A DNA stretch of 64,000 bases, taken from Candidatus Sabulitectum sp. GTDB taxonomy: Bacteria > Fermentibacterota > Fermentibacteria > Fermentibacterales > JCC-6. The notes below the pieces were generated by a model. That model was given only the letters and a program-made list of their open reading frames with translations. It was not told the DNA's origin and made no database searches. This document shows, piece by piece, positions 13,448 to 39,913 of the stretch; the first letter of the stretch is position 1, and each line of letters begins with the position of its first letter. The stretch spans positions 1-64,000 of the forward strand of contig JAIOSV010000116.1 in NCBI GenBank assembly GCA_021107435.1, given 5' to 3'. A program made the translations under genes and the position numbers.

Positions 13448-14554
13448 TTATTCTATCCTCCAATCGTCCGCCGATTCAACTCCCTTGATTTTCAGGATAA
13501 GGGAATTAGGATTGGTGGCGGCTGCGAGTGCTGTTCCCTCATCGATTTGCTCGTTCTTAAGCAGATTAAAGAGGCACATGTCGAAGGTCTGCATCCCGTA
13601 CTGATTGCCGCCCTGTTCCATTGTATCGTGGATAAGATGAAATTTCTCAGGGTCGGTAACACAGTTGCCTATTGTGGCTGTGTGAACCATGATCTCTGTA
13701 GCAAGAACCCTTTCTTTGCCCGTGGCGGCGGGAAGAAGTCTCTGGGAAATAACAGCCTTCAGAAGACCGCCCAGCTGAATTCTTATCTGTTTCTGCTGGT
13801 GAGCGGAGAACATGTCAATTATTCTGTTAATGGTCTCGGGGGCATCGGTAGTGTGAAGAGTGCTCATAACAAGATGACCTGTTTCAGCTCCGCTGAGGGC
13901 AATCGTAGCAGTCTCGGCATCACGCATTTCTCCTATGAGTATCACATCCGGATCCTGACGGAATACCGCACGGAGAGCGGTGGGCCATGAAAGGGTATCA
14001 ATACCCACTTCCCTCTGACAAATGGAACAGTTCTTATCGGGATGCAGAAATTCTATGGGATCCTCAATAGTTACAATATGGGCTTTCCTGTTCTCATTGA
14101 TCGTATTGATCATTGCAGCCAGTGTGGTTGATTTGCCGCTGCCGGTGGCACCTGTAACCAGAATAAGCCCTCTCTGTTCCAAACAGATTTTCTGAACAAC
14201 ATCGGGAAGACCAAGCTGACTGAGTTCGGGAATTTCAAAGGGTATCTTCCTCATAACCATGGCTGGTGTCCCCCGCTGATTGTAGATATTCACCCTGAAA
14301 CGAGCCTTGCCAGCCAGACTGTAGGCCAGATCAACCTCGGAGCCTGATCCAAAAAGCTCACGCTGAGCTTTATTTGTCACTTCATCTGTAATCTGAACCA
14401 TGTGTTCATTTGTGAAGCTGGGAAAACCGTCAGCATGTATGATGGAACCCGATCGCCTTACTATCGGCGGCGAACCCACTTTGAAGTGGATATCACTTAC
14501 ATGCTCATCAACAAGAGCATCAAGAATGGTGTCAATGGCCTTTTTCTGCCCCAT
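13448..14554 (-). CDS. pilT: Type IV pilus retraction ATPase PilT
   Basis: At 368 residues the protein has the PilT/PilU layout: N-terminal PAS-like domain (DALVDEHVSDIHFKVGSPP), Walker A GATGSGKST at about 135-143, Asp box IVTIEDPIEFLH, Walker B DVILIGEMRD and His box GHLVMSTLHT. The C-terminal AIRNLIRE motif of E. coli-type PilT is not seen; NCVTDPEKFHLIHDTMEQG takes its place, as in many PilT-like proteins outside Proteobacteria. PilT disassembles pilin fibres, driving twitching and DNA uptake. Its start overlaps nadD by 23 bases. The minor pilin operon lies some 17 kb away. Confidence 0.92.
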   Translation of the reverse strand: MGQKKAIDTILDALVDEHVSDIHFKVGSPPIVRRSGSIIHADGFPSFTNEHMVQITDEVTNKAQRELFGSGSEVDLAYSLAGKARFRVNIYNQRGTPAMVMRKIPFEIPELSQLGLPDVVQKICLEQRGLILVTGATGSGKSTTLAAMINTINENRKAHIVTIEDPIEFLHPDKNCSICQREVGIDTLSWPTALRAVFRQDPDVILIGEMRDAETATIALSGAETGHLVMSTLHTTDAPETINRIIDMFSAHQQKQIRIQLGGLLKAVISQRLLPAATGKERVLATEIMVHTATIGNCVTDPEKFHLIHDTMEQGGNQYGMQTFDMCLFNLLKNEQIDEGTALAAATNPNSLILKIKGVESADDWRIE

Positions 14555-26756: not shown

Positions 26757-28223
26757 ATGACGCTCTGTCTTATCACAGGGGTACTGCTTACCATCTGTTC
26801 AGCTCTGGTCTCCCGGAGTACAGCCGTTTCTGCGTTGATATGCAGTGTTGGTATTGCTTCTTCATTTCTTGTGTTTGAGATGAAAAGTGGTCCACTTACT
26901 CTTTTCCCTGTGCTGTCCTGGCTCGCGTTCGTCTTTGGAGGCACCATTCCAGGCATTCTAACTGCTATGGCTTCTATGACTCTGGGATTGTGCTTTCACT
27001 GGAAATCTATTCAAATCAGAGTTCTTTTCTTCAGCTACCTGCCGGTAGCTGTGCTGTTTGCTGCGGCAGTTTCTACTGATACGCCCATCTGGCCGGGAAG
27101 CCTGCTTCTTATTCCGGCAGGAATTCTGCTCCAGACTCTGTTCCTTGTATGTATCCGCAGCATCTCACAAAATTCCATTGTAACGATTTTAACTGCCTGG
27201 CTCATAAATGGAATATTCGCCTTCATCATCCGATTCTTCCTTTTGGAAAGTGGTTTTGCAGGAGGACTCCTTGTTCTGTTTGTTATGCTGATCTCTCTCT
27301 TATACGATTTCCGTTCCCGAAGCCGCCTGAACATGTACACAGGAAGAATAAGAACGTTGTCTCTCCAGAACAAACTTGTAAGCTTTCTTTACAAAAATGA
27401 TGACAGCTTCCCGCTATTTTTAATGGACGGTGTTCATGCCTGGACAATGCAGGGCAAACCGGCAGCCATTGGGACTCTAAAAACTCCCTCCAGTACTTAC
27501 GAAATTGAGAAGCATGGAGAATGGCATATCGTTTCAACGGAAAACTCAGTTTTCATCGCTGGCGGAGATGCTGCCGCTGAGCTGAAATCCCTGAAGTGTG
27601 CTGACTTGAAAGAAACCCTCAAACTGCTCGAAACTGTCTGGAAAGCTTCCTTCAGCAAAAGAAGGCTGGAAAACGCATTTCTTGGCGCCGCGTTGATGTT
27701 TGTACAACTCGCGGACAGGAGAGACTCGGACACACACCATCACTCCATTAGAGTTTCACAGATGGCAGAGAAACTCGCGACAATCCTGGGACTCCCTGAA
27801 AGCGATATCTTGCAATTGAGGGTTGGTGCTTTACTCCATGACATAGGAAAGCTTGCCGTTCCCGCCAGCTTGATAATGAAGAAAGGTCTTCTTACCAGGA
27901 CAGAAAGAACTATCATAGAAACACACCCCGGAGCTGGAGCAAAACTGCTTGGAGTGATGCAGAGGTATAATGAGGCATCAGCAATAGTCCACCAGCACCA
28001 TGAGCGCATTGATGGAAGCGGATATCCGGACGGTCTTACCGGTTCCTCCATCTCCCTGTACGCAAGAATAGTTGCAGTGGCAGACGTGTTTGATGCTATT
28101 ACTTCTCCCAGAGCCTATCATCAGGGCAAACCTGATTTAAACGCTCTGGAGGAAATAAAGAAATACAGAGGAACTTACTTTGACGCTGCTGTTGTCGATG
28201 CACTGGAGGAACTTCTGCTGTGA
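26757..28223 (+). CDS. Membrane HD-GYP phosphodiesterase
   Basis: The first 180 residues carry about six transmembrane helices (MTLCLITGVLLTICSALVSR and following). A linker of about 140 residues leads to a full HD-GYP domain: HHHSIRVSQMAEKL, HD at 361-362 in LLHDIGKLAVP, IIETHPGAGAKLL, and HHERIDGSGYPDGLTG with the GYP motif intact. HD-GYP enzymes hydrolyse cyclic di-GMP, or cGAMP in some lineages. GAGG directly abuts the ATG, so initiation is odd; a non-ATG start slightly upstream is possible. It is followed, with a GTGA overlap, by a degenerate paralogue. Confidence 0.88.
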   Translation: MTLCLITGVLLTICSALVSRSTAVSALICSVGIASSFLVFEMKSGPLTLFPVLSWLAFVFGGTIPGILTAMASMTLGLCFHWKSIQIRVLFFSYLPVAVLFAAAVSTDTPIWPGSLLLIPAGILLQTLFLVCIRSISQNSIVTILTAWLINGIFAFIIRFFLLESGFAGGLLVLFVMLISLLYDFRSRSRLNMYTGRIRTLSLQNKLVSFLYKNDDSFPLFLMDGVHAWTMQGKPAAIGTLKTPSSTYEIEKHGEWHIVSTENSVFIAGGDAAAELKSLKCADLKETLKLLETVWKASFSKRRLENAFLGAALMFVQLADRRDSDTHHHSIRVSQMAEKLATILGLPESDILQLRVGALLHDIGKLAVPASLIMKKGLLTRTERTIIETHPGAGAKLLGVMQRYNEASAIVHQHHERIDGSGYPDGLTGSSISLYARIVAVADVFDAITSPRAYHQGKPDLNALEEIKKYRGTYFDAAVVDALEELLL

Positions 28224-29701
28224 GATCTGAATCAAAATACCTGATAGCCGCTGTTGCCCTTACTTCCTTTTTCTTTGTTTTCCCGCCAGCGGAGCACAGG
28301 CTTCCAGACTCAACAGAGTCTCTTGTTCTTCTTCTCCTGGCTTCAGTGGGAATCCTGCTATCCAGAATCTTTGTTCTTTCATCGGACAACAGCGACAAGA
28401 TCGGAATTGAACCGGCTGTAATAGTTTGTCTGGCAGCCTGGAACAGCTCTTTTCTGATCTATCCTATTACTGCTCTCCTGTCTTTCAGCGGAAGCATTCT
28501 CAATTCAATTCGTATGGAAAAAAAGTTGTCTGCTGAAATACCACTGGCGATTTTTCAGGGAGTATCCTTTGCTTTTCTACTGAGATTCAGTTCCTTTGCC
28601 TATTGGAATTTTCTCGATTCCTGGGTCACTCTGGGGGCAGTCCACGCCTACACCGGCATGGTTGCTGTTGTTATCCCTGTTACGCTGCTGAGATGCATCT
28701 CAGTATGCTATTTCAGCAGTAGAAAAAGTAATTTTATAGAAATTATGAAGAAGAACATCCTGCTGAATGCCTTTATTCTTCTGCTTGCCACACCCTCCGC
28801 TCTTGCGATTCTTCTTGGGGAAACTTCTATCCGGATTCTAATTTCCTGCGCTTTCGGACTGTTCTCCATGCTTGTTGTTCATGCTATAAATCTGAGACAA
28901 AACAGATCAGCCCACGAGAAAACCGATGAACTTGAAACTGTATTCAGACTGAAGGAACTGTCCGGCAATCTTTTTTCCGCAACATCAGAAATGGATGTGC
29001 TGAGAGCGCTCAGCAGGGCTGTATCCACCGCCTGGGGCTGTCGGGCAGCTGTACAGTGGAAATCTTTAACGTATTTCGAAGGTGAGAAGTGGGACACAAC
29101 CAATACGGTAAACATCCGGCACAGTACCGGTCTCAGTATCTGGGTTGATTCCTTCAGCTCCACAGTTCCGCTGTACATGGAATCATTCCTGAACAGGGCA
29201 GTTCCCGTTCTTACCGGTCTTGAAGCTGAAAAAAGGATGAAGAAAACATCATGGGAATCAATGGAAACACTGATCTCATTTGTTGAACAGAACAACAGCG
29301 ATTTCGCGGGTTTCAGCAGAAGAGTAGCCACAACAGCGACCATACTCTGCCGGGCGCTTGATATGGATCTCTGGTACGAAGACTGTATGCGCCTCGCGGG
29401 TCTGCTTCACATGATCTCTCTACCGAAAAATATTGAAGAAAACATTCAGGAGCAGACTCATGCTCTCCCGGAGATAACCCGCCAGGCACTTGAGGGAATG
29501 GCGGAACACTGGAGCGGTACGGGTTCCACCGGAAAGCTCCAGGATGAGATACCTCTTCCCGCGAGGATTCTTGCGGTGAGTATTGCCTGGGAAAAGGCTA
29601 TGAACTCTGGAACAGCCATGGCTGTCAGAGACATGAATATGAGAGCGGGAACCCTTTACGATCCCCGCCTCGCGAAACTTGTTATTCAACTGAATGGCTA
29701 A
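28220..29701 (+). CDS. Degenerate HD-GYP-like membrane protein
   Basis: GTG at 28220 overlaps the previous stop (GTGA). The layout copies the upstream gene: about 180 residues of membrane helices, a linker that reads like a GAF-type domain (LKELSGNLFSATSEMDVLRA), then an HD-GYP-like region. The catalytic residues are gone: HDIGK is LHMISL, and HHERxDGSGYP is AEHWSGTGSTGKL. It should not hydrolyse cyclic di-GMP but might bind it or pair with its active neighbour. At 493 residues it nearly equals the partner in size, as if from a tandem duplication followed by loss of the active site. Confidence 0.75.
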   Translation: MRSESKYLIAAVALTSFFFVFPPAEHRLPDSTESLVLLLLASVGILLSRIFVLSSDNSDKIGIEPAVIVCLAAWNSSFLIYPITALLSFSGSILNSIRMEKKLSAEIPLAIFQGVSFAFLLRFSSFAYWNFLDSWVTLGAVHAYTGMVAVVIPVTLLRCISVCYFSSRKSNFIEIMKKNILLNAFILLLATPSALAILLGETSIRILISCAFGLFSMLVVHAINLRQNRSAHEKTDELETVFRLKELSGNLFSATSEMDVLRALSRAVSTAWGCRAAVQWKSLTYFEGEKWDTTNTVNIRHSTGLSIWVDSFSSTVPLYMESFLNRAVPVLTGLEAEKRMKKTSWESMETLISFVEQNNSDFAGFSRRVATTATILCRALDMDLWYEDCMRLAGLLHMISLPKNIEENIQEQTHALPEITRQALEGMAEHWSGTGSTGKLQDEIPLPARILAVSIAWEKAMNSGTAMAVRDMNMRAGTLYDPRLAKLVIQLNG

Positions 29702-29769: not shown

Positions 29770-31170
29770 TCAAACTCTGTCATCTTCTATTTCAAAACCC
29801 TCCCGCTCGGGAGGATCCATGATCCAGCTGTACACATTCCACCTGCCCAGCATTGGAAAGTAGGGAGGATGCAGAGCGCCAAGCCCCTGTTCCCATGAGT
29901 TTCCCAGCTCATATCCTCTGTTCACTGATGACAAACGGCCCATCGTTCTTTCCGCAAGACTTCCTGACACGGTAACTCTTGTCAGATCTTCCGGTATGTT
30001 TGGCGTTCTGGCGTAGAATGAACCGGAAGGAGCCACAAGGCAAGCCCTGATAAGCAGTCCCTGATTCGTTTCTATTTGCCATCGCCCGGGCCAGTCACTG
30101 CCTCCTGTTTCATCCGGATCCGCTGAAATAATGATGTTTCCAAGAGCTACCAGACCAAGCGGTCCTCCTGAGCCAACCGCGCCTCCGTCGATTCCTCCCC
30201 CTATCTCCATATCGTTAACAGCGATAATGGTAAGCGGATGGTCAGGTCTTCTCACTGTCTTTATCGTTACAGGTGAGAAACCGTTTCGAGCAATCACCAG
30301 ATTCACATCGGCAAGTTCAACTGTTTCCTCCGGAGCAGTCCGGTTTGCTCTGAACACCAGCTTCTCTCCCTCAATAAGAATTCTCTCTGCATTAATACGA
30401 ACGGTGCCACTCGGAGCTGAACCGGCAACAAGACCACTGAAGTGAGCTGCCATCCTCGCAAAATCAATTTCCGGCGCGGAAACCCTCCAGTAAGGACTGC
30501 CCTGCCTGTGCAGTGAGTATGGTCTCACCCATATGCTGCTGCCCGGCGGATGGGGCAGGTTGGATGCTCCCCCTCCCGCGAAGCTGAATCCTCCTGCGGC
30601 GGTTGTGGAAATCATGGAGACACTGGGGTCGTCTGTGGAATCAGGCGAATAGCTGCTGAAGTGGATCATTCCGTTGGAATGAACAGGGCCGTTCACAATT
30701 CTTCCATCCACAAAGTAGCCTTCGGGAATGCCGTTTTCAGTAAGCAGTGCATAACTGGACGGGTAGGCGGGAGTCGCCCTTAACTCAACATCAACGGTGA
30801 TATCCCCGGAAAGTCCCCGGGCTCGCACCTCCACCGCTCCATTACTGCAGAAACCACCCGCTCCGTTAATAGGATCAACAACGATAAAGACACTGCCACA
30901 GTCCGGAATACCAATCCATCCGGCACTGTCGCCTTCCATTCTGATAACGAACGGAGTACCGTCGGGGGGAATGGATTCCATAGCGGAAAGGTGATGAAGA
31001 GCCAGAGCAGTTCCTGCCTCGGCAGCCACTTCCGCACGTATCCTGTTCATCCTGAAGAGGCCCGCACGCATACTCATCTGAAAGTAAGTGTACGCCACTC
31101 CGGTAAGAACAAACAGCACTGCCGCTGCCCCGACCACCATGGCCAGCACACTTCCTCTTTCACGCTTCAC
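29770..31170 (-). CDS. PilX/DUF4900-like minor pilus protein
   Basis: The track ORF starts at 31218; GTG at 31170 has GGAG seven bases upstream and starts MKRERGSVLAMVVGAAAVLF, giving 466 residues with the membrane helix at the right place. This N-terminus, a short positive stretch then a long hydrophobic helix, is the PilX_N / DUF4900 type and lacks a clear Gly-Phe-Thr-Leu-Glu prepilin site. The body is beta-rich: GYFVDGRIVNGPVHSNGMIH, VVRDNRTAPEE-like strands, GGSDWPGRWQIETNQGLLIR. DUF4900-type proteins occur in type IV pilus operons. It is the last of six genes in this operon. Confidence 0.65.
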   Translation of the reverse strand: MKRERGSVLAMVVGAAAVLFVLTGVAYTYFQMSMRAGLFRMNRIRAEVAAEAGTALALHHLSAMESIPPDGTPFVIRMEGDSAGWIGIPDCGSVFIVVDPINGAGGFCSNGAVEVRARGLSGDITVDVELRATPAYPSSYALLTENGIPEGYFVDGRIVNGPVHSNGMIHFSSYSPDSTDDPSVSMISTTAAGGFSFAGGGASNLPHPPGSSIWVRPYSLHRQGSPYWRVSAPEIDFARMAAHFSGLVAGSAPSGTVRINAERILIEGEKLVFRANRTAPEETVELADVNLVIARNGFSPVTIKTVRRPDHPLTIIAVNDMEIGGGIDGGAVGSGGPLGLVALGNIIISADPDETGGSDWPGRWQIETNQGLLIRACLVAPSGSFYARTPNIPEDLTRVTVSGSLAERTMGRLSSVNRGYELGNSWEQGLGALHPPYFPMLGRWNVYSWIMDPPEREGFEIEDDRV

Positions 31171-31250
31171 GTAGATGCTCCATTCACTCCCGGAAAGTTC
31201 CTTCCCCGTGCCTGTCAAGCGTTATACCAGCACCAATACATGACGGGGTA

Positions 31251-32714
31251 CTAGTACCCCCCCGTAATACCGTTCTTAACATCACCGATACTCATGTCAT
31301 GCTTCTCTGCCCACATCGTTGTGTTCCAGTTGGCGGTTGTGGGAAAAAACGGCGGATGCATGTAGAGAAGCCTGGGGTCGAAGTAAACGGCCATGTTGAA
31401 CCCCGCGTTGCCAGTACTTGTGTATCCCTCCTCCTGAACCATGTAGCCGCCTACTATCCGGAATTCATGGACTCCCGAGGGCTCCCAGTATTTTTCTGCC
31501 AGTATATCCCCTTCCAGAGCAACCACAACAGCGTAGTAGGAGAAACTGGAGTCTGTGTCAATATGGTAGCGTGTGCTGCCCCAGGCGCTCTGGTTACCGG
31601 GATAATCCGCGATAACCAGATCACCCTCAACTGTCATAATTCCCAGAAGATTCTCGTTGTCGGGATCCTGAGGATCGTCATTCTCGTAGATCAGAGGACC
31701 TGACATGTACACATCTCCAATTGTACCGACGGTAAGCGCCATATCAAGTCCCTGATTCTGATCTCCGCGAAGATAAAAATAGTCACCGGGGTCGTTTTCA
31801 ATCCACACAACGGGATTGTCCATACCTCCAAGCGGATACGCGACCTCGGAAATCAACGTAGTATCAGTCTTAACAAAAAGGGTGTCACCTTTAAGAGCCA
31901 ATCTTGATCCGTTGGGCACTTCGGTTTCAGTAAGAGACAGCCCGTCAGCCTGGGCGGCGTTCTTGACTCCTTCCCAGTTAAGCTCATCCATTCCAAATGG
32001 AATCGGGTCTACGCCAAGATCAAAGTATGGAGCGCCCAGAATCAGCCTGTTGTATGGGCGCATCTGAAGGTTGCCTGCGGCCGGCGTTGTCTCATGTGAT
32101 CCTGCTCCCCAGCCGTAAACATAGTAATCGGAAGTAAGTTCAAAACTGTAGAAGAATACATCGTTATCGTGGGACGCGCTGTTGCTGACAAGTCGTACCG
32201 GTCCGTTGGCGTAGAAGGGACCGTCAAAACGGTACCCGTCAACATATGCTCCGTCAAGTGACGGATTATCCATGAAGACAGAGAACCTGGCCAGATTCTC
32301 GGGCATAACGATGGTCTCCATACCATATGATTCAATGGTACTTCCTGAAACGAAGGCTACACATCTTATCATAAAGGCATTAGCCATAATGAGTTTATAG
32401 TTTTTGTTATTGGGGTCAACTGCAGCGTAAACGCCGCCCATACCCCCCGGCAGCGTAAACAGTGAAGTTTCCGTACCCAGAATATCCTGTGGAATGGTGT
32501 CAGTAGGAAGCGTGGCGCCGGCAACAAGCATGTGTGTGGCCAGGTTGAGACCTGCCTCCGCTGAAAGCTTTGCCTGCATTCTCTCACGTGTCCAGAGCTG
32601 AGTATCGGCATTTCCCTTGAAGTACTGGTACGCGCCAGCGGTAAGAATGATAAGAAAAATAGACGAAATCAGAACCAGAACCAGAGCTGAGCCTCTTCTG
32701 TGTATTGTGTTCAT
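31251..32714 (-). CDS. PilX/DUF4900-like minor pilus protein
   Basis: ATG at 32714 has AGGAGG six bases upstream and starts MNTIHRRGSALVLVLISSIF, giving 487 residues. Layout matches the next gene in the operon: basic start, one helix, then LSAEAGLNLATHMLVAGATL, GAYVDGYRFDGPFYANGPVR, and NLLGIMTVEGDLVIADYPGN. The shared VDGxxxxGPxxxNGxxH/xR core and the C-terminal MHPPFFPTTANW versus LHPPYFPMLGRW ending show that the two are paralogues. They are likely minor components of the pilus tip or its assembly site. Confidence 0.65.
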   Translation of the reverse strand: MNTIHRRGSALVLVLISSIFLIILTAGAYQYFKGNADTQLWTRERMQAKLSAEAGLNLATHMLVAGATLPTDTIPQDILGTETSLFTLPGGMGGVYAAVDPNNKNYKLIMANAFMIRCVAFVSGSTIESYGMETIVMPENLARFSVFMDNPSLDGAYVDGYRFDGPFYANGPVRLVSNSASHDNDVFFYSFELTSDYYVYGWGAGSHETTPAAGNLQMRPYNRLILGAPYFDLGVDPIPFGMDELNWEGVKNAAQADGLSLTETEVPNGSRLALKGDTLFVKTDTTLISEVAYPLGGMDNPVVWIENDPGDYFYLRGDQNQGLDMALTVGTIGDVYMSGPLIYENDDPQDPDNENLLGIMTVEGDLVIADYPGNQSAWGSTRYHIDTDSSFSYYAVVVALEGDILAEKYWEPSGVHEFRIVGGYMVQEEGYTSTGNAGFNMAVYFDPRLLYMHPPFFPTTANWNTTMWAEKHDMSIGDVKNGITGGY

Positions 32715-32724
32715 CAGCAACCTC

Positions 32725-35700
32725 CTAATTCGAATCACGGCCGTAGAAACCGACGTTGTCGATATTCCAGCCGCCTTTATTTGCGAAAGGTCCTGAATCC
32801 ATAAGGAACCGGATGAAGTAATAGTTTTTACCGTCTGCTATGCCCTGCTCGAAATACGGTGTCAATTGAATCACATCCTGTTCCCAGCCATCGTCAAGCT
32901 GGACATACTCAGCCACCTTTATCCAGTCGCTCTCCGCAGTTGGGGGAACGATGGAATCAGTGAAGGCAATATGTATTCTTGCCCAGTCATTCAATGCCAT
33001 TTTCAGGCATCTGTCGTATGCCAGACTGATGGAATCGTAAACAGCGGCATCAGCCAGATCGTACGGGTATGAATGGATCCAGCACCATGCGTCATCCATG
33101 TAGTATCCGTCATCCGTAAGATCATTACCCGCGATGTTGTTCTGGTTGGAAGGCAGAAGCGCAGGATCAATATCCGGTATGAACACTGGCGCTCCAATTT
33201 CCCAGTCATCGTTAGTTCCCCCGTGAACCCATGCAACTTCCGAGCTGAATCCCATTTCTGAGAGAAGGTACAACCCCTCAAAATCGCTGAAGTTTGCGGT
33301 GAAACTCAGGGGCACATCACTGTTGGCTCCTGTAGAATCAGCGTCAATGAGTATCTGCCCGTGGTTAAGGGTGTTGAGCATGAACGCCGGTCTGTTATCT
33401 CCCACCTTGAGCAAGCCGGGATCACCTCCGGGAGATGTTTCCCATCTGGTCATGTTCTCACGGTACGCGGTAACCCAGGTGTAGGCCGGGGTAAGTGCGG
33501 TTTGACTCATCTCCAGTTTAACCTGCAGATTGGTAGCCAGGAGAACAACGAAATCTTCGTCAAGATCGATTGTCACCCAGTTTCCAGCACCAGGAGGAGT
33601 TATATTATAGGTACCGCAAAATGTGAGCTGGTTTTTATCCCACTCACCGCTTGCGGCAAAGCAGGTCTCGGCAACCCGGCCAAGGTAAACATCCACCTGG
33701 TCGAAGTCCCAGGTTCCGCCGGGGTTTGTAAGCTTGAACCCTATGGACTCGACTACCAGCCCTTCAACGACACCGGTCGCTGCAAAGTTGTCCAGTGCCC
33801 AGCCTCCTCTGACACCGTTGTCATCTGAATGGAACATGAACCTGAATCTAACCGACTGCCCCACGTATGGCTCAAGTGAAAGTTTCGTTGTATTCTGAGC
33901 AATGAAGCCGGTATAGGCACCGTGTCCGTTGTAGAAACTGTTGTAAGTGGAGGTCTCAACCACCTGCCATGTTGAACCTCCATTGGTGGATACTTCAACC
34001 CAGCAGAAGTCGAAACCTGCCTCCAGGTCAATTGCCTGTTCAAATGCCAGTTCGGCTTCCTCTGTATTGATTGGAATACCGAACTCGGGAGATTCCAGCC
34101 AGCAGTCAACGGAGTTGCTGTATTCAGTAAGATTGTTGGCGTGGAGAGTGTATTTGTGATCACCGAGAATTCTCTCCAGAAGCCAGTCGTCTTTTTCACC
34201 GGATACCACAGGCCCGTGACTCCAGCCCGGAGCTTCGTAAATCGCGCCGATATATCCGAGTTCAAAATTCTTCCAGAGAATACCGTATTGAGCCCACGGG
34301 CCAATGCCGTACTGACTCAAGGCAATCGCGAAGTCAGAAGAGAACTCAATTCCCAGCGCCGCGGCCTCGTCATCAAGATCAATGTGCAGATTCTGATAGC
34401 CTCCGCTGGAAGATGGAGTGCCGATACGGTTCATGCTCGCGGTGTTGTTGTTGGCGAGTATAGAGATGTCATCAAAACTCATTCCGGCGTGGGCTGTAGC
34501 ACTGCTGGCACTGTTGTCATCATATTGACCGAAAATCACATAGATAGTTGGCGGCATGACGCCCGGAGGGACAAATGTGTAATTACCTCCGTACCAGTCG
34601 CCGTTGGATTGAGTACCCGGAAGCAGGTTAACATAATCCTCAATGGGGTCAACGATACTGTTTCCGTAGCTCCATCCGATGAAGTCTCCCTCGCCGGTAG
34701 CGGCATTGTAGTTGTCGGTAGCATCCCCGTGATCACTCATCAGGTAGCTGACACTGATGGGAACACCGTCATCAAGAGTGGAAGTATCCAGCTCAAAAAT
34801 CATTCGAACCCTGTTGTACTCACCGCTTACCTCACTGTCCATAGTGACGAATCTGGTTGAGTTACCGCCCCAGTTGGGATCGGGGCAGTGAATTCTGTGA
34901 CGACCGTGAGCGTCTCCCCAGAATGTCACATCGCCACCGCCAAGCGGAAGGTTCTCGAAATTCTGTGATACCAGGTTCACCACTGAACCGCTGCCTGTTA
35001 CAAGGAAAACCCCTTCTTCAGAGCTGATGGTCTCTGTGGTACCCCTCCAGGTTTTCAGCCTTATGTAAAGATCATCTCCCGCTGTTGTGTAGTTGGAAAG
35101 GTCAAGAATGGAAGCGACAGTGTTGCGATCCCAGGCTCCGACAGCGGATCTGTCGGTTTGAAGCACATTGTCCGGCATTCTGATTACCCGGCCTGACCCG
35201 GAGGAAAAGAATGACCACATCATTTCGGCGCCTCCACCGACCACAAAGTCAGTGTAAAGCGTTATTGAATCGGGAAGCCACGCTCCACCCTCCAGACTGT
35301 CTTCCCAGAAGGTCATAAGCACATCACCGGGAGATTCCCCTTCAAATCCCTCCTTGTTGATCTCTTCTCCCAGTGGAGGAGTGGTGGGTCCCGGAAGATT
35401 CCACATAATCACGTTGAGAAGGAATTGCTTCCCCCGCATGCTGTAGTTTTCAAAATCAGGCGCACAGTAGTGAACCCGTCTTAATTCAAGATTGAACTCA
35501 TCAATCACGGACACGCCCGAAAGGGAAAGACCGTCGAAGTCTGTAATAAGCTCTGTTCCCGCTGTCAGCGCGCCCAGGGTAGTAACGTACCTGCCTGGAG
35601 CAGCATCGTAAATATCGAAGGTGTCCGGAAGAAGGTCATGTATCGGATGGGGCTTATTGACCGGGAACATCTCACAAACATTGTTGTTCTGGAAACCCGG

Positions 35701-36642
35701 TGTACCTCCCATCAGGAAAATATCCTCGGCGTCATCGGGATCAAGCGCGATTATCGGCACACGAATTGCCTGCAGAGCACCCGATATAGCAACATGACTG
35801 CCGGTACCACCGCTTGTTACATCCCTCAGGATAACAAGATCAACTCCGGAACTGTCGTAATCATAGGTTTCCAGTTCGTCATCCGTCAGATCAACAAGGG
35901 TGAATCCCCAGCCGTCAAGCAGACCCAGCAGAGCTATCTGGTGGTTGGTTGGCGCGTGAGCCAGCGAGTCACCGTTTATATTGACTACGATCTTGGCATC
36001 CGGAGGAGGCGGCATATAGAAAAGAGGGTCGAAATTGTGATAAACGCCCAGATTGCGCGGAGTTATCATGGTCTGCATAACCGTCTGATACACATCCCCC
36101 ATGTATGTGCCCTGAAGGGTCAGTTTGACCATGATATGACGAACAGCGTCTCTGTTTGCTTCGTCAAGCGGCATGGGTCCCAGGAAGTCCCCGGCACCAT
36201 CCAGATAGTTGAACTGAATTGATGTGATGCCCGCTCCGGCAACCCGGTTCATCAGGCTGTCATCCGTGATGCGAAGAACCTTAAAAGCATCAAGAAAAAT
36301 ATTTCTGTGGTCGGAATCGGTTAGAACCCTGTATGCTTCTCTGTCAGCATAGAAGTCGAACTTGTAGCTTTCGGCAACCTCCACAGGATGCCAGTCGGTC
36401 TCCAGCCACCCTCCGTAGGGCATGTAACCTGCCCAGATGATCTCATCAGAGAGTACTTCAAGAGCCAGTCTGCCTGTAGTGGCCAGATCATTCTGCCTGC
36501 GGGTAAAATGGAACTGCTCTGTTCCCTTCACGAAGAACATGTAAACAGCGGCGAATAGAATTCCCAGAATACCAATCACAATGACCAGTTCAATGAGAGA
36601 CATTCCTGATTTCGATTTTGATCTTGAAAAGTGCTTTCTCAT
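32725..36642 (-). CDS. Giant PilW-like minor pilin with large adhesin-like C-terminus
   Basis: ATG at 36642 has AAGGAGG eight bases upstream; 1305 residues. The N-terminus SKSGMSLIELVIVIGILGIL is a class III-like prepilin signal: Gly before the cut and Glu at +5. Most minor pilins are 120-350 residues. After a PilW-type stalk, residues of about 215-420 form an alpha/beta domain (DAKIVVNINGDSLAH, GVDLVILRDVT, VPIIALDPDDA) resembling a flavodoxin/ThuA-like fold. The rest is a row of beta-sandwich domains with GGWALDNF, MSFDDISI and GGWNIDNV, as in MAM/peptidase-M6-associated lectin-like modules. I infer a pilus-displayed adhesin. Confidence 0.8.
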   Translation of the reverse strand: MRKHFSRSKSKSGMSLIELVIVIGILGILFAAVYMFFVKGTEQFHFTRRQNDLATTGRLALEVLSDEIIWAGYMPYGGWLETDWHPVEVAESYKFDFYADREAYRVLTDSDHRNIFLDAFKVLRITDDSLMNRVAGAGITSIQFNYLDGAGDFLGPMPLDEANRDAVRHIMVKLTLQGTYMGDVYQTVMQTMITPRNLGVYHNFDPLFYMPPPPDAKIVVNINGDSLAHAPTNHQIALLGLLDGWGFTLVDLTDDELETYDYDSSGVDLVILRDVTSGGTGSHVAISGALQAIRVPIIALDPDDAEDIFLMGGTPGFQNNNVCEMFPVNKPHPIHDLLPDTFDIYDAAPGRYVTTLGALTAGTELITDFDGLSLSGVSVIDEFNLELRRVHYCAPDFENYSMRGKQFLLNVIMWNLPGPTTPPLGEEINKEGFEGESPGDVLMTFWEDSLEGGAWLPDSITLYTDFVVGGGAEMMWSFFSSGSGRVIRMPDNVLQTDRSAVGAWDRNTVASILDLSNYTTAGDDLYIRLKTWRGTTETISSEEGVFLVTGSGSVVNLVSQNFENLPLGGGDVTFWGDAHGRHRIHCPDPNWGGNSTRFVTMDSEVSGEYNRVRMIFELDTSTLDDGVPISVSYLMSDHGDATDNYNAATGEGDFIGWSYGNSIVDPIEDYVNLLPGTQSNGDWYGGNYTFVPPGVMPPTIYVIFGQYDDNSASSATAHAGMSFDDISILANNNTASMNRIGTPSSSGGYQNLHIDLDDEAAALGIEFSSDFAIALSQYGIGPWAQYGILWKNFELGYIGAIYEAPGWSHGPVVSGEKDDWLLERILGDHKYTLHANNLTEYSNSVDCWLESPEFGIPINTEEAELAFEQAIDLEAGFDFCWVEVSTNGGSTWQVVETSTYNSFYNGHGAYTGFIAQNTTKLSLEPYVGQSVRFRFMFHSDDNGVRGGWALDNFAATGVVEGLVVESIGFKLTNPGGTWDFDQVDVYLGRVAETCFAASGEWDKNQLTFCGTYNITPPGAGNWVTIDLDEDFVVLLATNLQVKLEMSQTALTPAYTWVTAYRENMTRWETSPGGDPGLLKVGDNRPAFMLNTLNHGQILIDADSTGANSDVPLSFTANFSDFEGLYLLSEMGFSSEVAWVHGGTNDDWEIGAPVFIPDIDPALLPSNQNNIAGNDLTDDGYYMDDAWCWIHSYPYDLADAAVYDSISLAYDRCLKMALNDWARIHIAFTDSIVPPTAESDWIKVAEYVQLDDGWEQDVIQLTPYFEQGIADGKNYYFIRFLMDSGPFANKGGWNIDNVGFYGRDSN

Positions 36643-36655
36643 TCTACTCACCTCC

Positions 36656-37036
36656 TTAAAAAATTGTACTCAGGCTTAAGCTGTCAGCTCCATCAACGCC
36701 TGTCCAGGTCATCCTGCATCTCACATGTTTCGCTTCAGGATACAGGGCATACGGAGTATCTATCCATACTGAGCGGGTAAACCCCTGAATTGTTTCCGAA
36801 GGGGTCTGCCATCCGTCGCTCATGGATATAACGTCCATGGTACGGAGTTTCTCAATACCTTCACGGCATAACTCCAGAGCTTTGGTCTGATCGTCCATCC
36901 GGTCGGACATTTTGATGATGTTCATGAAGAAAAAGGCAATTCCAGTCATAACAATTGCCAGTATGACTGCGGCAATCACAATCTCGAGTAAAGTAAATCC
37001 CGTCTCCCCTTTCCGGAAAGTTCTTCGAATGCTCAT
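36656..37036 (-). CDS. PilV-like minor pilin
   Basis: The prepilin site is RKGETGFTLLEIVIAAVILA: Gly, then Phe at +1 and Glu at +5. The remaining 100 residues after the helix (MNIIKMSDRMDDQTKALELC, GWQTPSETIQGFTRSVWIDT) are a short pilin body. At 126 residues it has the size of PilV/FimT-type minor pilins, which seed the fibre. ATG 37036 overlaps the stop of the upstream pilin (ATGA) and the gene ends 13 bases before the giant pilin start, so the three are made together. Confidence 0.85.
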   Translation of the reverse strand: MSIRRTFRKGETGFTLLEIVIAAVILAIVMTGIAFFFMNIIKMSDRMDDQTKALELCREGIEKLRTMDVISMSDGWQTPSETIQGFTRSVWIDTPYALYPEAKHVRCRMTWTGVDGADSLSLSTIF

Positions 37037-37407
37037 AGCAACTCCTGCCTGTTTGTGTTTCTATCAACGTAAAATCTTCTTGCTAATTCAATTGATACAG
37101 AGTCACCGGAGGAAACTGCCACAAAAACATCTACAGCATCTTCACCCTGGAAACCAACAGTTGTTTCTATTGTGTATGGATGACCCCACAGTGTATCGGG
37201 TTTTTCTGTTATACCGGGCTCCGGAATCTCTTCCAGTCTCTCAATCTCAGCGATTTCAACCCTTGCCAGAGTCAGCGCGCCCTCTTGAAGCTCAAGAGTT
37301 TTCCCGCCCCTGACAAAAGAAATCAAAGCAACGGATAGAGCAGTAAGCACAACAAGCATTATTACCGAGGCCACAAGCAACTCTGCAAGGGTAAAGCCCT
37401 TTCTCAT
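37033..37407 (-). CDS. Minor pilin (type IV pilin-like)
   Basis: MRKGFTLAELLVASVIMLVV is a very short leader ending Gly-Phe-Thr-Leu-Ala-Glu; the mature pilin starts at Phe5. The 124-residue protein has a typical N-terminal helix, then a small beta domain (DTLWGHPYTIETTVGFQGED, VSSGDSVSIELARRFYVDRN). It is one of the four genes with prepilin-like or PilX-like starts in this operon. Both its ends overlap its neighbours by four bases (ATGA junctions), a tight coupling seen for pilus subunits that assemble as a complex. Confidence 0.85.
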   Translation of the reverse strand: MRKGFTLAELLVASVIMLVVLTALSVALISFVRGGKTLELQEGALTLARVEIAEIERLEEIPEPGITEKPDTLWGHPYTIETTVGFQGEDAVDVFVAVSSGDSVSIELARRFYVDRNTNRQELL

Positions 37408-38828
37408 AAGTCCAGCCCCTCGAGAGTGTGAAAGACCCGTCTTCCGCCGTTTGATTCGTAAATGGAAAATATGTAAGTTTCTCCCGCGGTTCTTTCTCCT
37501 CTGTACTGATTCAATGTGGAAAATGACATTTTGATACCATCACCGTTCACCGGATTAAAGCAGGCATCAACACCGTTCTCTGTGGTTCTGAAGAAATCAG
37601 TTTCCCCGCCGTCAGCGTCACCGGCAAAAATTTCACCGCTGAGGAGTTCAAGAATGTACCCTGATGAAGATGCTATAACCGCGCTGCCATCGATGATACC
37701 TGTCAGTGTATTCCCGCTGCCGTAGAATCGTCCCTGCCAGCCAAGACGGTAATTCATCTCTGGAGTGAATTCAGTGAATCCGTCATATCCCAGGCGGAAC
37801 CACCTGTCGCCTCCAACAGGCATCTTCCACATTCCGCAAAGACCGGTTCTACCCCCCACACTTCCCCAGCAGGTTAAAGAACCTCCAGGACTCGTTCTTA
37901 TGATTTCCTCTGTGGACCCGGAGTAAACTGAAAGCGAAAAGCGAGTGGCAAAAGCCACATCTTCCATACCGTCGTTATTGAAGTCTCCACTGAAAACATC
38001 CACTATATGCGCAATGCCAAAGGATGAATATCCCTGGAAAACAGAGCCAAACATGCTTCCGTCGGAAAGAAACACAGGACAGGTTCCAGTTGGAGAGCCT
38101 ATATGCTTCGGTTCACCGGATTCGCAATCATAAAGAATGCCGATATTGGCACCCCCGGTAATTATCAACATGGGTATTCCATCAGAAGATTCTCCAGCTG
38201 AAAGCCAGGAACGGGACGAAAGAACCGTAGAGCTAATCAGTGTTTGAACTTGAACACCCTCGGAAGTAACCACGCAGAGAAGTGCTTTACCGTCCCCTTC
38301 AAAAACAATAACAACACCTTCTTCTCCCTGGTAAGTAAACGGTGTTCCGGCAACAGGCTTGAGGTCAGTCTCAAAGGCAAATTCAGAAGTCGGGTTAAAA
38401 GTATCTCCGCTGAAGAAGGTAATCAGCACAGTGGATTCATCAATTTCCCGCACAGAAACAAGACGATCACCGATGGGAATAATGACTGCTCTCAAGGCAT
38501 TCTCTACAGAATAGAAACCTGTTCTGATTCCGGCTGTACCAGTTTCCAGAAGAGTAAACTCTGTGGAAACCCCTGCCAGGTCGAATTGCAGAGGTTCATT
38601 AGCGACTCCCGGTCCTCTCCGGGAAAGCAGAAGCGCAAGCCCGTCAGCCGCGCTTGATTCAGAAAGATTAACCTGTGCCGCGTTCAACCTGTTCATATGG
38701 GCGTTCACCAGTCTTCTTGTGAGGCTGATAAGAAGAGTAGCGGCCATCATCACAATCACCGCCGCAAGCAGAGCAATAAGAAGAGCTGCTCCGCGCTTTT
38801 TCTGTTTTGTTTTAGTGTTTTTCATCAT
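37404..38828 (-). CDS. PilX-like membrane protein with FG-GAP/VCBS propeller
   Basis: This is first in the pilin operon. It starts KKRGAALLIALLAAVIVMMA, a PilX/GspK-like N-terminus. The body of about 420 residues is beta-propeller-like with one clear FG-GAP unit, DVFSGDFNNDGMEDVAFATR, and related blades (GFYSVENALRAVIIPIGDRL, SGYILELLSGEIFAGDADGG). FG-GAP/VCBS repeats bind calcium in secreted adhesins. A propeller carried on a PilX-type anchor is unusual. The start has no strong ribosome site (two ATGs at 38828 and 38825). Confidence 0.6.
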   Translation of the reverse strand: MMKNTKTKQKKRGAALLIALLAAVIVMMAATLLISLTRRLVNAHMNRLNAAQVNLSESSAADGLALLLSRRGPGVANEPLQFDLAGVSTEFTLLETGTAGIRTGFYSVENALRAVIIPIGDRLVSVREIDESTVLITFFSGDTFNPTSEFAFETDLKPVAGTPFTYQGEEGVVIVFEGDGKALLCVVTSEGVQVQTLISSTVLSSRSWLSAGESSDGIPMLIITGGANIGILYDCESGEPKHIGSPTGTCPVFLSDGSMFGSVFQGYSSFGIAHIVDVFSGDFNNDGMEDVAFATRFSLSVYSGSTEEIIRTSPGGSLTCWGSVGGRTGLCGMWKMPVGGDRWFRLGYDGFTEFTPEMNYRLGWQGRFYGSGNTLTGIIDGSAVIASSSGYILELLSGEIFAGDADGGETDFFRTTENGVDACFNPVNGDGIKMSFSTLNQYRGERTAGETYIFSIYESNGGRRVFHTLEGLDL

Positions 38829-38927: not shown

Positions 38928-38947
38928 GTGTGAAGAAGTCTTCACAC
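38928..38947. repeat. 20-base inverted repeat over the dprA stop codon
   Basis: GTGTGAAGA-AG-TCTTCACAC is a perfect 9-bp inverted repeat at the end of dprA, in the gap before the pilin operon. With no following T-run in either direction, I cannot call it a terminator. It may be a weak one or an operator for the pilin operon, whose promoter must lie in 38829-38941. Confidence 0.35.
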
Positions 38948-39913
38948 TGGCGTGTAGAGACCACCCGGTCTTCTGATAACCAGCCCCTGCAGTTCAAGCT
39001 CCAGAAGCCTTGTGTTTATCAACGCTGTTTCCTCATGAAGAGCAAGGGAAAGCTGCTCGGGTGTTGACTGCTTCCTGCTCAAAGAGGCAAGAATGGGATC
39101 TGAAGCAGCAGGAACAGACGCGGATGGTAAATTAATGCCAAGTTCTGAAATAAGCTCTTCAGGTGACAGAACTATTCCAGCTCCGTCTCTCAGGAGCCTG
39201 TTTGACCCCCTGGTGGAAGACCTGTCTATATCTCCGGGGACTGAGTACACATCTCTGCCCTGATCAAGCGCGCTACCCACCGTTATCATTGTGCCGCTTC
39301 TCTCGCCTGCCTCAACAACCACAACTGCACTTGCGAGACCGCTGATTATTCTGTTCCGCTCTGGAAATGTGTATTTCGCTGGTTTGATCCCCGGTGGATA
39401 CTCGGATACAAGACACCCTTTCGCGGCTACTCTTTCAGCAAGGGAACTGTGTTCCGGAGGATACATGATATCGAGACCGCCACCCATGACGGCAGCAGTG
39501 GGCGATCCGCCGTCAAGCGCTCCTCTGTGAGCTTCACCATCAATTCCTCTGGCCAGACCACTCACAACACAAACACCTGCCCGGCTCAGCTCCATGGAAA
39601 GCCTCCTTGCCGTTTTTCTGCCGTAAAGAGAGCATCTTCTGGAACCTATCACCGCGATTGTGAATGGCAGATCAGCCGGAGATACTTCTCCTCTGTAGAA
39701 AAGAATTGCCGGAGGATCGGGGATATTCGTGAGTTGTTCCGGGTAGCCGTCTCCGCTGAAGTACACTGCTCTTATGCCCAGTTTCTCGCAGACGGCAAGG
39801 GAGCTCTTTAAAGCAACCTGCGGTGACAGCTCAGCTATCTTTTCAGGAGAATCAGCAGTGAGAAGTCTGCGCAGCTCACTTCTGGAGGAGACTCCCGGGA
39901 GTGCCAGTGTCAG
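38942..39913 (-). CDS. dprA: DNA processing protein DprA, apparently starting at CTG
   Basis: DprA loads RecA on incoming single-stranded DNA in natural transformation. The Rossmann-like core is clear: FTIAVIGSRRCSLYGRKTAR, VVSGLARGIDGEAHRGAL, FPERNRIISGLASAVVVVEA, and the C-terminal winged helix. The track frame begins at GTG 39766, but coding continues 49 codons upstream with a good N-terminal helical domain (LALPGVSSRSELRRLLTADS, PEKIAELS). No ATG, GTG or TTG is in that part. CTG at 39911-39913 overlaps the obg stop as CTGA, exactly as the many ATGA junctions do here. I choose CTG, giving 323 residues. Confidence 0.88.
   Translation of the reverse strand: MTLALPGVSSRSELRRLLTADSPEKIAELSPQVALKSSLAVCEKLGIRAVYFSGDGYPEQLTNIPDPPAILFYRGEVSPADLPFTIAVIGSRRCSLYGRKTARRLSMELSRAGVCVVSGLARGIDGEAHRGALDGGSPTAAVMGGGLDIMYPPEHSSLAERVAAKGCLVSEYPPGIKPAKYTFPERNRIISGLASAVVVVEAGERSGTMITVGSALDQGRDVYSVPGDIDRSSTRGSNRLLRDGAGIVLSPEELISELGINLPSASVPAASDPILASLSRKQSTPEQLSLALHEETALINTRLLELELQGLVIRRPGGLYTPV

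Follow-up and report, generated by a model that had tools for sequence, protein, structure and literature searches.

The ways in which type IV pili acquire new means of gripping are not settled; those known so far are modular pilins and PilY1. The first form an established and widespread class of over 1,200 proteins in 264 architectures, and of the multi-domain examples cited the most extreme has 860 residues (PMC8179133). Two modular pilins, PilB and PilC of Streptococcus sanguinis, bind proteins and glycans and have been modeled at the pilus tip (PMC8179133, PMC9934059). In Myxococcus xanthus, PilY1 is a tip component carried by a minor-pilin tip complex (PMC7541494), and the tip complexes of known systems may include modular pilins with adhesive modules (PMC8179133, PMC9934059, PMC10191384). 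Here, we describe a giant modular prepilin encoded in a 64,000-nucleotide (nt) stretch of DNA from Candidatus Sabulitectum sp. (positions 1 to 64,000 of contig JAIOSV010000116.1, GenBank assembly GCA_021107435.1), referred to below as the window. As a building block of the pilus, the protein is about ten times as large as is usual, and our preferred reading, to which we assign a probability of about 0.68, is that of a modular pilin located at the tip of the pilus, where it presents adhesive modules and stands in for PilY1. The phylum Fermentibacterota is represented here solely by metagenome-assembled genomes, and our literature search found nothing that describes its pili in detail.

The gene occupies positions 32725..36642 as a single uninterrupted frame. 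A preliminary description of the window had placed it correctly but left the strand unstated; it is the minus strand, the plus strand across the same interval being riddled with stops. Translation from the ATG at 36642 gives 1305 amino acids (aa). As this ATG is preceded by a Shine-Dalgarno sequence, AAGGAGGTGA (36648..36657, minus strand), and lies 13 nt past the stop of a 126-aa prepilin, it provides the best gene model, and the length of 1305 residues reported earlier holds; a mechanical GTG start at 36651 sits within the Shine-Dalgarno sequence itself. The first 13 residues, MRKHFSRSKSKSG (36604..36642, minus strand), form a prepilin leader with cleavage expected after Gly13. Together with MSLIELVIVIGILGILFAAVYMFFV, which follows, they make up a canonical class III signal: a leader ending in Gly, a hydrophobic stretch, and Glu+5. 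The signal, already recognized in the preliminary description, matches Pfam N_methyl (2.8e-5) and TIGR02532, each above cutoff, and is retained in 19/20 family members. The predicted mature protein has 1292 aa, a mass of 142.5 kDa, and an isoelectric point (pI) of 4.2, with every module below pI 4.8. Its pilin module (residues 14-209; 36016..36603, minus strand), which carries the N_methyl match and is delimited by orthologue alignment, contains the conserved segments GRLALE..DEIIWAGYMP and TPRNLG. In a profile search of this part against PDB, pilin N termini were the sole matches, and among three Escherichia coli minor pilins the best was PpdB, over the N-terminal 46 columns alone and at a probability of 32%.

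The gene order around the giant is DprA, a 474-aa K-like protein, a 124-aa pilin, a 126-aa pilin, the giant, a 495-aa K-like protein, and a 482-aa K-like protein; from the first K-like gene to the last, it is conserved across families. The starts are coupled, as had been noted, with the 13-nt spacing upstream and an overlapping open reading frame (ORF) downstream. The neighbors had been called ordinary minor pilins, which fits two of them, but the three GspK/PilX-like proteins (474-495 aa) are themselves large. A secreted or tethered surface protein might merely use the prepilin signal, with the hydrophobic helix as an inner-membrane anchor, and next to the 860-residue example (PMC8179133) the size is indeed extreme for a pilin. 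However, in three families the gene of the giant lies between those of minor pilins, with coupled starts, and the best-conserved parts include the whole pilin globular region up to residue 209 and not the signal alone (mean column identity, 61%), as would be expected of an assembly interface, which makes a non-pilus protein unlikely. By its signal, by the neighboring pilins, and by the type IVa pilus (T4aP) machine and prepilin peptidase encoded in the genome, the giant qualifies as a type IV prepilin, which would be processed and assembled into filaments.

A giant pilin is matched in 39/42 genomes of the order Fermentibacterales. Beyond the source genome, 38 of 41 match at E <= 1e-3, the remaining three being 68-73% complete, and against contigs of Candidatus Sabulitectum and Fermentibacteraceae the full query has 72-74% identity end to end. 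Relatives, to which the preliminary description had pointed as a check on gene size, carry ~1300-aa forms in three families (f1, f2, and f3). A form of 1145 aa occurs in one genome (G015), and the genus-g2 forms, each a single ORF of about 790-880 aa, keep the pilin and alpha/beta domains and the terminal module, M6, and lack modules M1-M3 (see below). With this smaller set in genus g2, the tail acts as a module. An unrooted tree built on the pilin plus alpha/beta part places long forms to either side of its midpoint and gathers 6/7 short forms into a single clade, a pattern in keeping with a long ancestor and subsequent losses, the root not being known. In comparisons with two relatives, every module has a ratio of nonsynonymous to synonymous substitution rates (dN/dS) of 0.11-0.32, which indicates that all are under purifying selection. 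Two doubts raised at the outset can be dismissed: a frame-joining artifact is ruled out by intact same-size orthologues in independent assemblies, and a short pilin with separate ORFs in relatives is ruled out in that the short forms are single ORFs. Because of these orthologues and the dN/dS values in each module, the fusion is neither chance nor artifact.

Directly after the pilin module lies a single-copy alpha/beta domain (residues 210-429; 35356..36015, minus strand). With a 19-sequence profile, it was found in 36/42 Fermentibacterales genomes, exclusively within the giant pilin gene, and in 0/248 genomes outside the order; nothing matched it in Pfam, NCBIfam, or PDB. The preliminary description had called this region flavodoxin/ThuA-like. 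Pfam ThuA matched none of 20 members nor their consensus, whereas hhalign aligned ThuA with the domain end to end and colinearly at a score of 15.8, with a probability of only 3-5%; 60 column shuffles of that comparison gave a mean of 3.1 (standard deviation, 2.2; maximum, 8.8). Single ThuA sequences did not rise above control proteins. The profile signal above shuffles thus stands, but the database matches are lacking and the probability is low, and a ThuA-like identity is a weakly supported lead rather than a result. The same weak alignment and the conservation in 36/42 genomes speak for an alternative in which the alpha/beta domain, or a tail module, is a pilus-displayed hydrolase such as a glycosidase or esterase. 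We regard this as highly improbable: none of 20 members matches a Pfam enzyme family, no Cys, Ser, or His nucleophile is found among the positions invariant in the domain (N, P, G, D, Y, Y, G, N, W, and G), and the NCBIfam metallopeptidase matches to the giant family span the non-catalytic MAM/choice-of-anchor J region alone, with no peptidase domain found in the giant.

The ~875 residues that follow are probable beta modules. Their boundaries, in ATG numbering, were set by blocks kept or lost in the orthologue alignment rather than by structures: M1-M3 (residues 430-803; 34234..35355), M4 (804-959; 33766..34233), M5 (960-1104; 33331..33765), and M6 (1105-1305; 32728..33330), all on the minus strand. 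As the preliminary description had it, there are at least three sandwich ends of the GWxxDN/SFDDIS type: GMSFDDIS at 720, within the beta-rich M1-M3, GGWALDN at 946, at the end of M4, and GGWNIDN at 1290, at the end of M6. M4 matches InhA-like_MAM (PF20773) at 4.8e-7, with 29.9 bits against a gathering score of 26.9 and over profile positions 62-163 of 191 only, which confirms the MAM-like module proposed earlier; the same family is matched by 12/20 orthologues. Its match to choice-of-anchor J (NF038128) is just under cutoff, and its profile finds the InhA structure 4yu5 (E=0.0058). Two NKG2-D C-type lectin chains matched by the M4 profile (E, 0.0015-0.0018) were taken as chance, and in module-by-module PDB searches no module except M4 gave a meaningful match. 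PF20773 takes its name from immune inhibitor A, a secreted protease, whereas here the module rides on a pilin. M6, which is kept in all forms of the giant pilin, the short ones included, is distantly related to M4, with a probability of 97.5 and an E of 7e-12 when the profiles are compared. Comparisons gave no support for M1-M3 as copies of M4 or M6, and M1-M3 and M5 matched no family above cutoff in Pfam or NCBIfam. Of the lectin-like sandwiches described earlier, then, one module has a family match, but to MAM/choice-of-anchor J and not to a lectin; the match of M5 to Lectin_like (PF18560; E=0.056) falls below cutoff.

The genome encodes the machinery to assemble such a pilin. One cluster, on contig C124, holds PilB (above the equivalog cutoff), PilT, the PilC platform, and a 121-aa major pilin, PilA; a second comprises PilM-PilO-secretin, and a prepilin peptidase is also present. 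The window itself carries a second PilT-family ATPase, a PilT/PilU-family retraction ATPase (13448..14554, minus strand), away from the main pilB-pilT-pilC cluster. A search for PilY1 (PF05567) gave a match in only 1/42 genomes of the order (G017), in contrast to 35/199 others, and as those 35 matched, the search worked; the giant pilin itself has no PF05567 match. The single match in the order (L112, G017:C19:8110-9009) lies within a 2487-codon frame. The giant could instead be a subunit of a type II secretion-like pseudopilus, its tail gripping exported proteins and not outside surfaces. The operon does encode three GspK-like proteins, minor pseudopilins of type II secretion systems recognize effectors (PMC10191384), and the genome has a single secretin, so that one machine could serve both roles. 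Yet that secretin, which has an AMIN domain, fits PilQ (just under the cutoff of the model) more closely than GspD; the ATPases match the PilB and PilT models above cutoff, retraction ATPases being T4aP features; and the tail of a 142-kDa protein would be hard to fit in a periplasmic pseudopilus. We therefore consider a pseudopilus role unlikely.

The sequences show a prepilin signal, an intact and conserved fusion, an operon of minor pilins, the pilus machinery, and the near-absence of PilY1; from these we infer a tip position, adhesion, and replacement of PilY1. The prepilin peptidase would cut off the 13-residue leader, and the pilin module would enter a tip complex alongside the other products of the operon, two short minor pilins and three GspK/PilX-like subunits. 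A tail of ~1100 residues could hardly fit along the shaft, and hence the giant would stay at the tip, where the order-specific alpha/beta domain and several MAM/choice-of-anchor-type modules would contact surfaces or extracellular polymers. PilT-driven retraction would then pull the cell or the bound material, and the giant would take over the job that PilY1 has in most diderm T4aP. Modules like those of the tail are common on secreted proteins and here probably serve to bind surfaces or polymers, and by this analogy the role of pilus-tip adhesin or polymer-binding tool proposed in the preliminary description is plausible.

Compared with known systems, the giant resembles S. sanguinis PilB and PilC in having a prepilin module with C-terminal non-pilin modules, in being encoded with other pilins, and in its predicted place at the tip. 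Those two proteins, for which an adhesive role has been demonstrated, are 50-53 kDa, with von Willebrand factor A or immunoglobulin (Ig)-like plus lectin modules, whereas the giant, at 142 kDa, has an alpha/beta domain and several MAM-type modules and belongs to a diderm-type T4aP without detectable PilY1. In size it is comparable to PilY1/PilC (PF05567; ~160 kDa for M. xanthus PilY1.3, PMC7541494), with which it would share the role of a tip effector held by minor pilins. Unlike the giant with its prepilin signal, however, PilY1 is no pilin and has a C-terminal beta-propeller. Like PilW/GspJ, the J class of the HIJK tip complex, the giant comes after two short minor pilins and adjoins K-like subunits. 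Its GRLALE..DEI..AGY segment presumably resembles PilW as well. Canonical PilW/GspJ members nevertheless lack the ~1100-residue tail, and the giant gives no profile match to a PilW/GspJ model. The architecture, size, order-wide conservation, and PilY1-poor setting of the giant appear to be new.

Several points weigh against a modular tip pilin in the place of PilY1. Assignment of the pilin part to the PilW/GspJ class is not established, there being no profile match along the domain. AlphaFold with three sequences gave a mean pLDDT (predicted local distance difference test) of 31.4 for residues 6-554 and 34.4 for residues 430-1305; as these models are unusable, the folds of most modules are unverified, and the strand-rich M2, M4, and M5 of the latter model are of low confidence. 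MAM and choice-of-anchor J modules also occur on secreted proteases with no link to pili, so that the case for surface or polymer binding is one of analogy. Finally, the genus-g2 genome G017 holds both a short giant form and the PilY1 match, PilY1 could be too diverged for the Pfam model, and several of the genomes are incomplete.

The tail is not confined to one protein. A second prepilin of ~990 aa occurs in G001, G002, G004, G008, G016, and G037 and, in partial or broken form, in G003, G010, and G011; wherever the neighborhood was read, it directly follows the last K-like gene (L035:13134-16103 in G008, L036:3109-6090 in G016, and L037:13238-16213 in G037). This second giant lacks the alpha/beta domain. 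Residues ~430-1015 of the first giant, M1-M3 included, are homologous to the tail of the second, at 27% identity (E 6e-29). At the same place, G038 has a bare 199-aa prepilin (L043:12985-13584), and in G039-G041 the match to the second pilin is likewise limited to a frame of 225-267 residues. That the pilin at this place bears a homologous tail in some genomes and is bare, at ~200 aa, in others is direct evidence that the tail can be gained or lost as a module of its own. The with-tail second prepilin and the bare 199-aa prepilin are a natural pair. In the source genome there is no second giant, a convergent gene lying 68 nt past the last K-like gene. Directly after the second giant of G016 is a 911-aa protein with three Kre9/KNH-like Ig domains (L036:545-3280), which is also missing from the end of the source operon. 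We tentatively suggest, as a possibility still short of an even bet, that PilY1 has been replaced order-wide by a giant J-position modular pilin and that a mobile adhesive tail (M1-M4 plus M6) sits on two different pilins of one operon, so that a tip can carry two long tails. The natural series of bare ~200-aa, ~790-880-aa, ~990-aa, and ~1300-aa forms, in secretin-type T4aP bacteria almost without PilY1, makes the replacement of PilY1 by modular pilins a directly testable idea. The giant also offers a handle on how Fermentibacterota might attach to particles.

The remaining operon genes are likewise on the minus strand. Upstream of the giant lie the 126-aa minor prepilin (36656..37036), with best matches ComGE/PilV/GspI-like, the 124-aa minor prepilin (37033..37407), and the 474-aa GspK/PilX-like protein (37404..38828), with a weak FG-GAP-like stretch. 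Downstream are a GspK/PilX-like protein of 495 aa from GTG 32738 or 487 aa from ATG 32714 (31251..32738) and, at the operon end, the 482-aa protein (29770..31218), called GspK/PilX-like from its N terminus, position, and length. The K-like proteins lack Glu+5, and two of them weakly match GspK N termini. Three such large proteins (474-495 aa) are thus encoded in a single operon, whereas the usual pilus tip complex has one K subunit. Promoter and terminator scans yielded no more than shuffles.

In the source genus and some others, the operon is preceded by dprA (38942-39766, minus strand; TIGR00732 above cutoff), which has the same orientation and ends 113 nt away. A ComEC family match also occurs in the genome, so that the pilus may also serve DNA uptake. 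These two genes would suit a competence pilus in which the tail of the giant binds DNA. But the mature protein is strongly acidic throughout, at the pI values given above, and on these grounds a DNA receptor role of the tail was rejected; moreover, dprA is away from the operon in L039, L040, L044, and L045, where the pilin operon is otherwise kept, and MAM-type modules are not known to bind DNA. A DNA-uptake subunit is accordingly improbable. Converging on the operon from the plus strand are the genes of two HD-domain proteins (26757-28223 and 28220-29701), of which the first is HD-GYP-like, and the PilB of the genome has an MshE-type motif for binding cyclic di-GMP, which makes cyclic di-GMP control of these pili possible.

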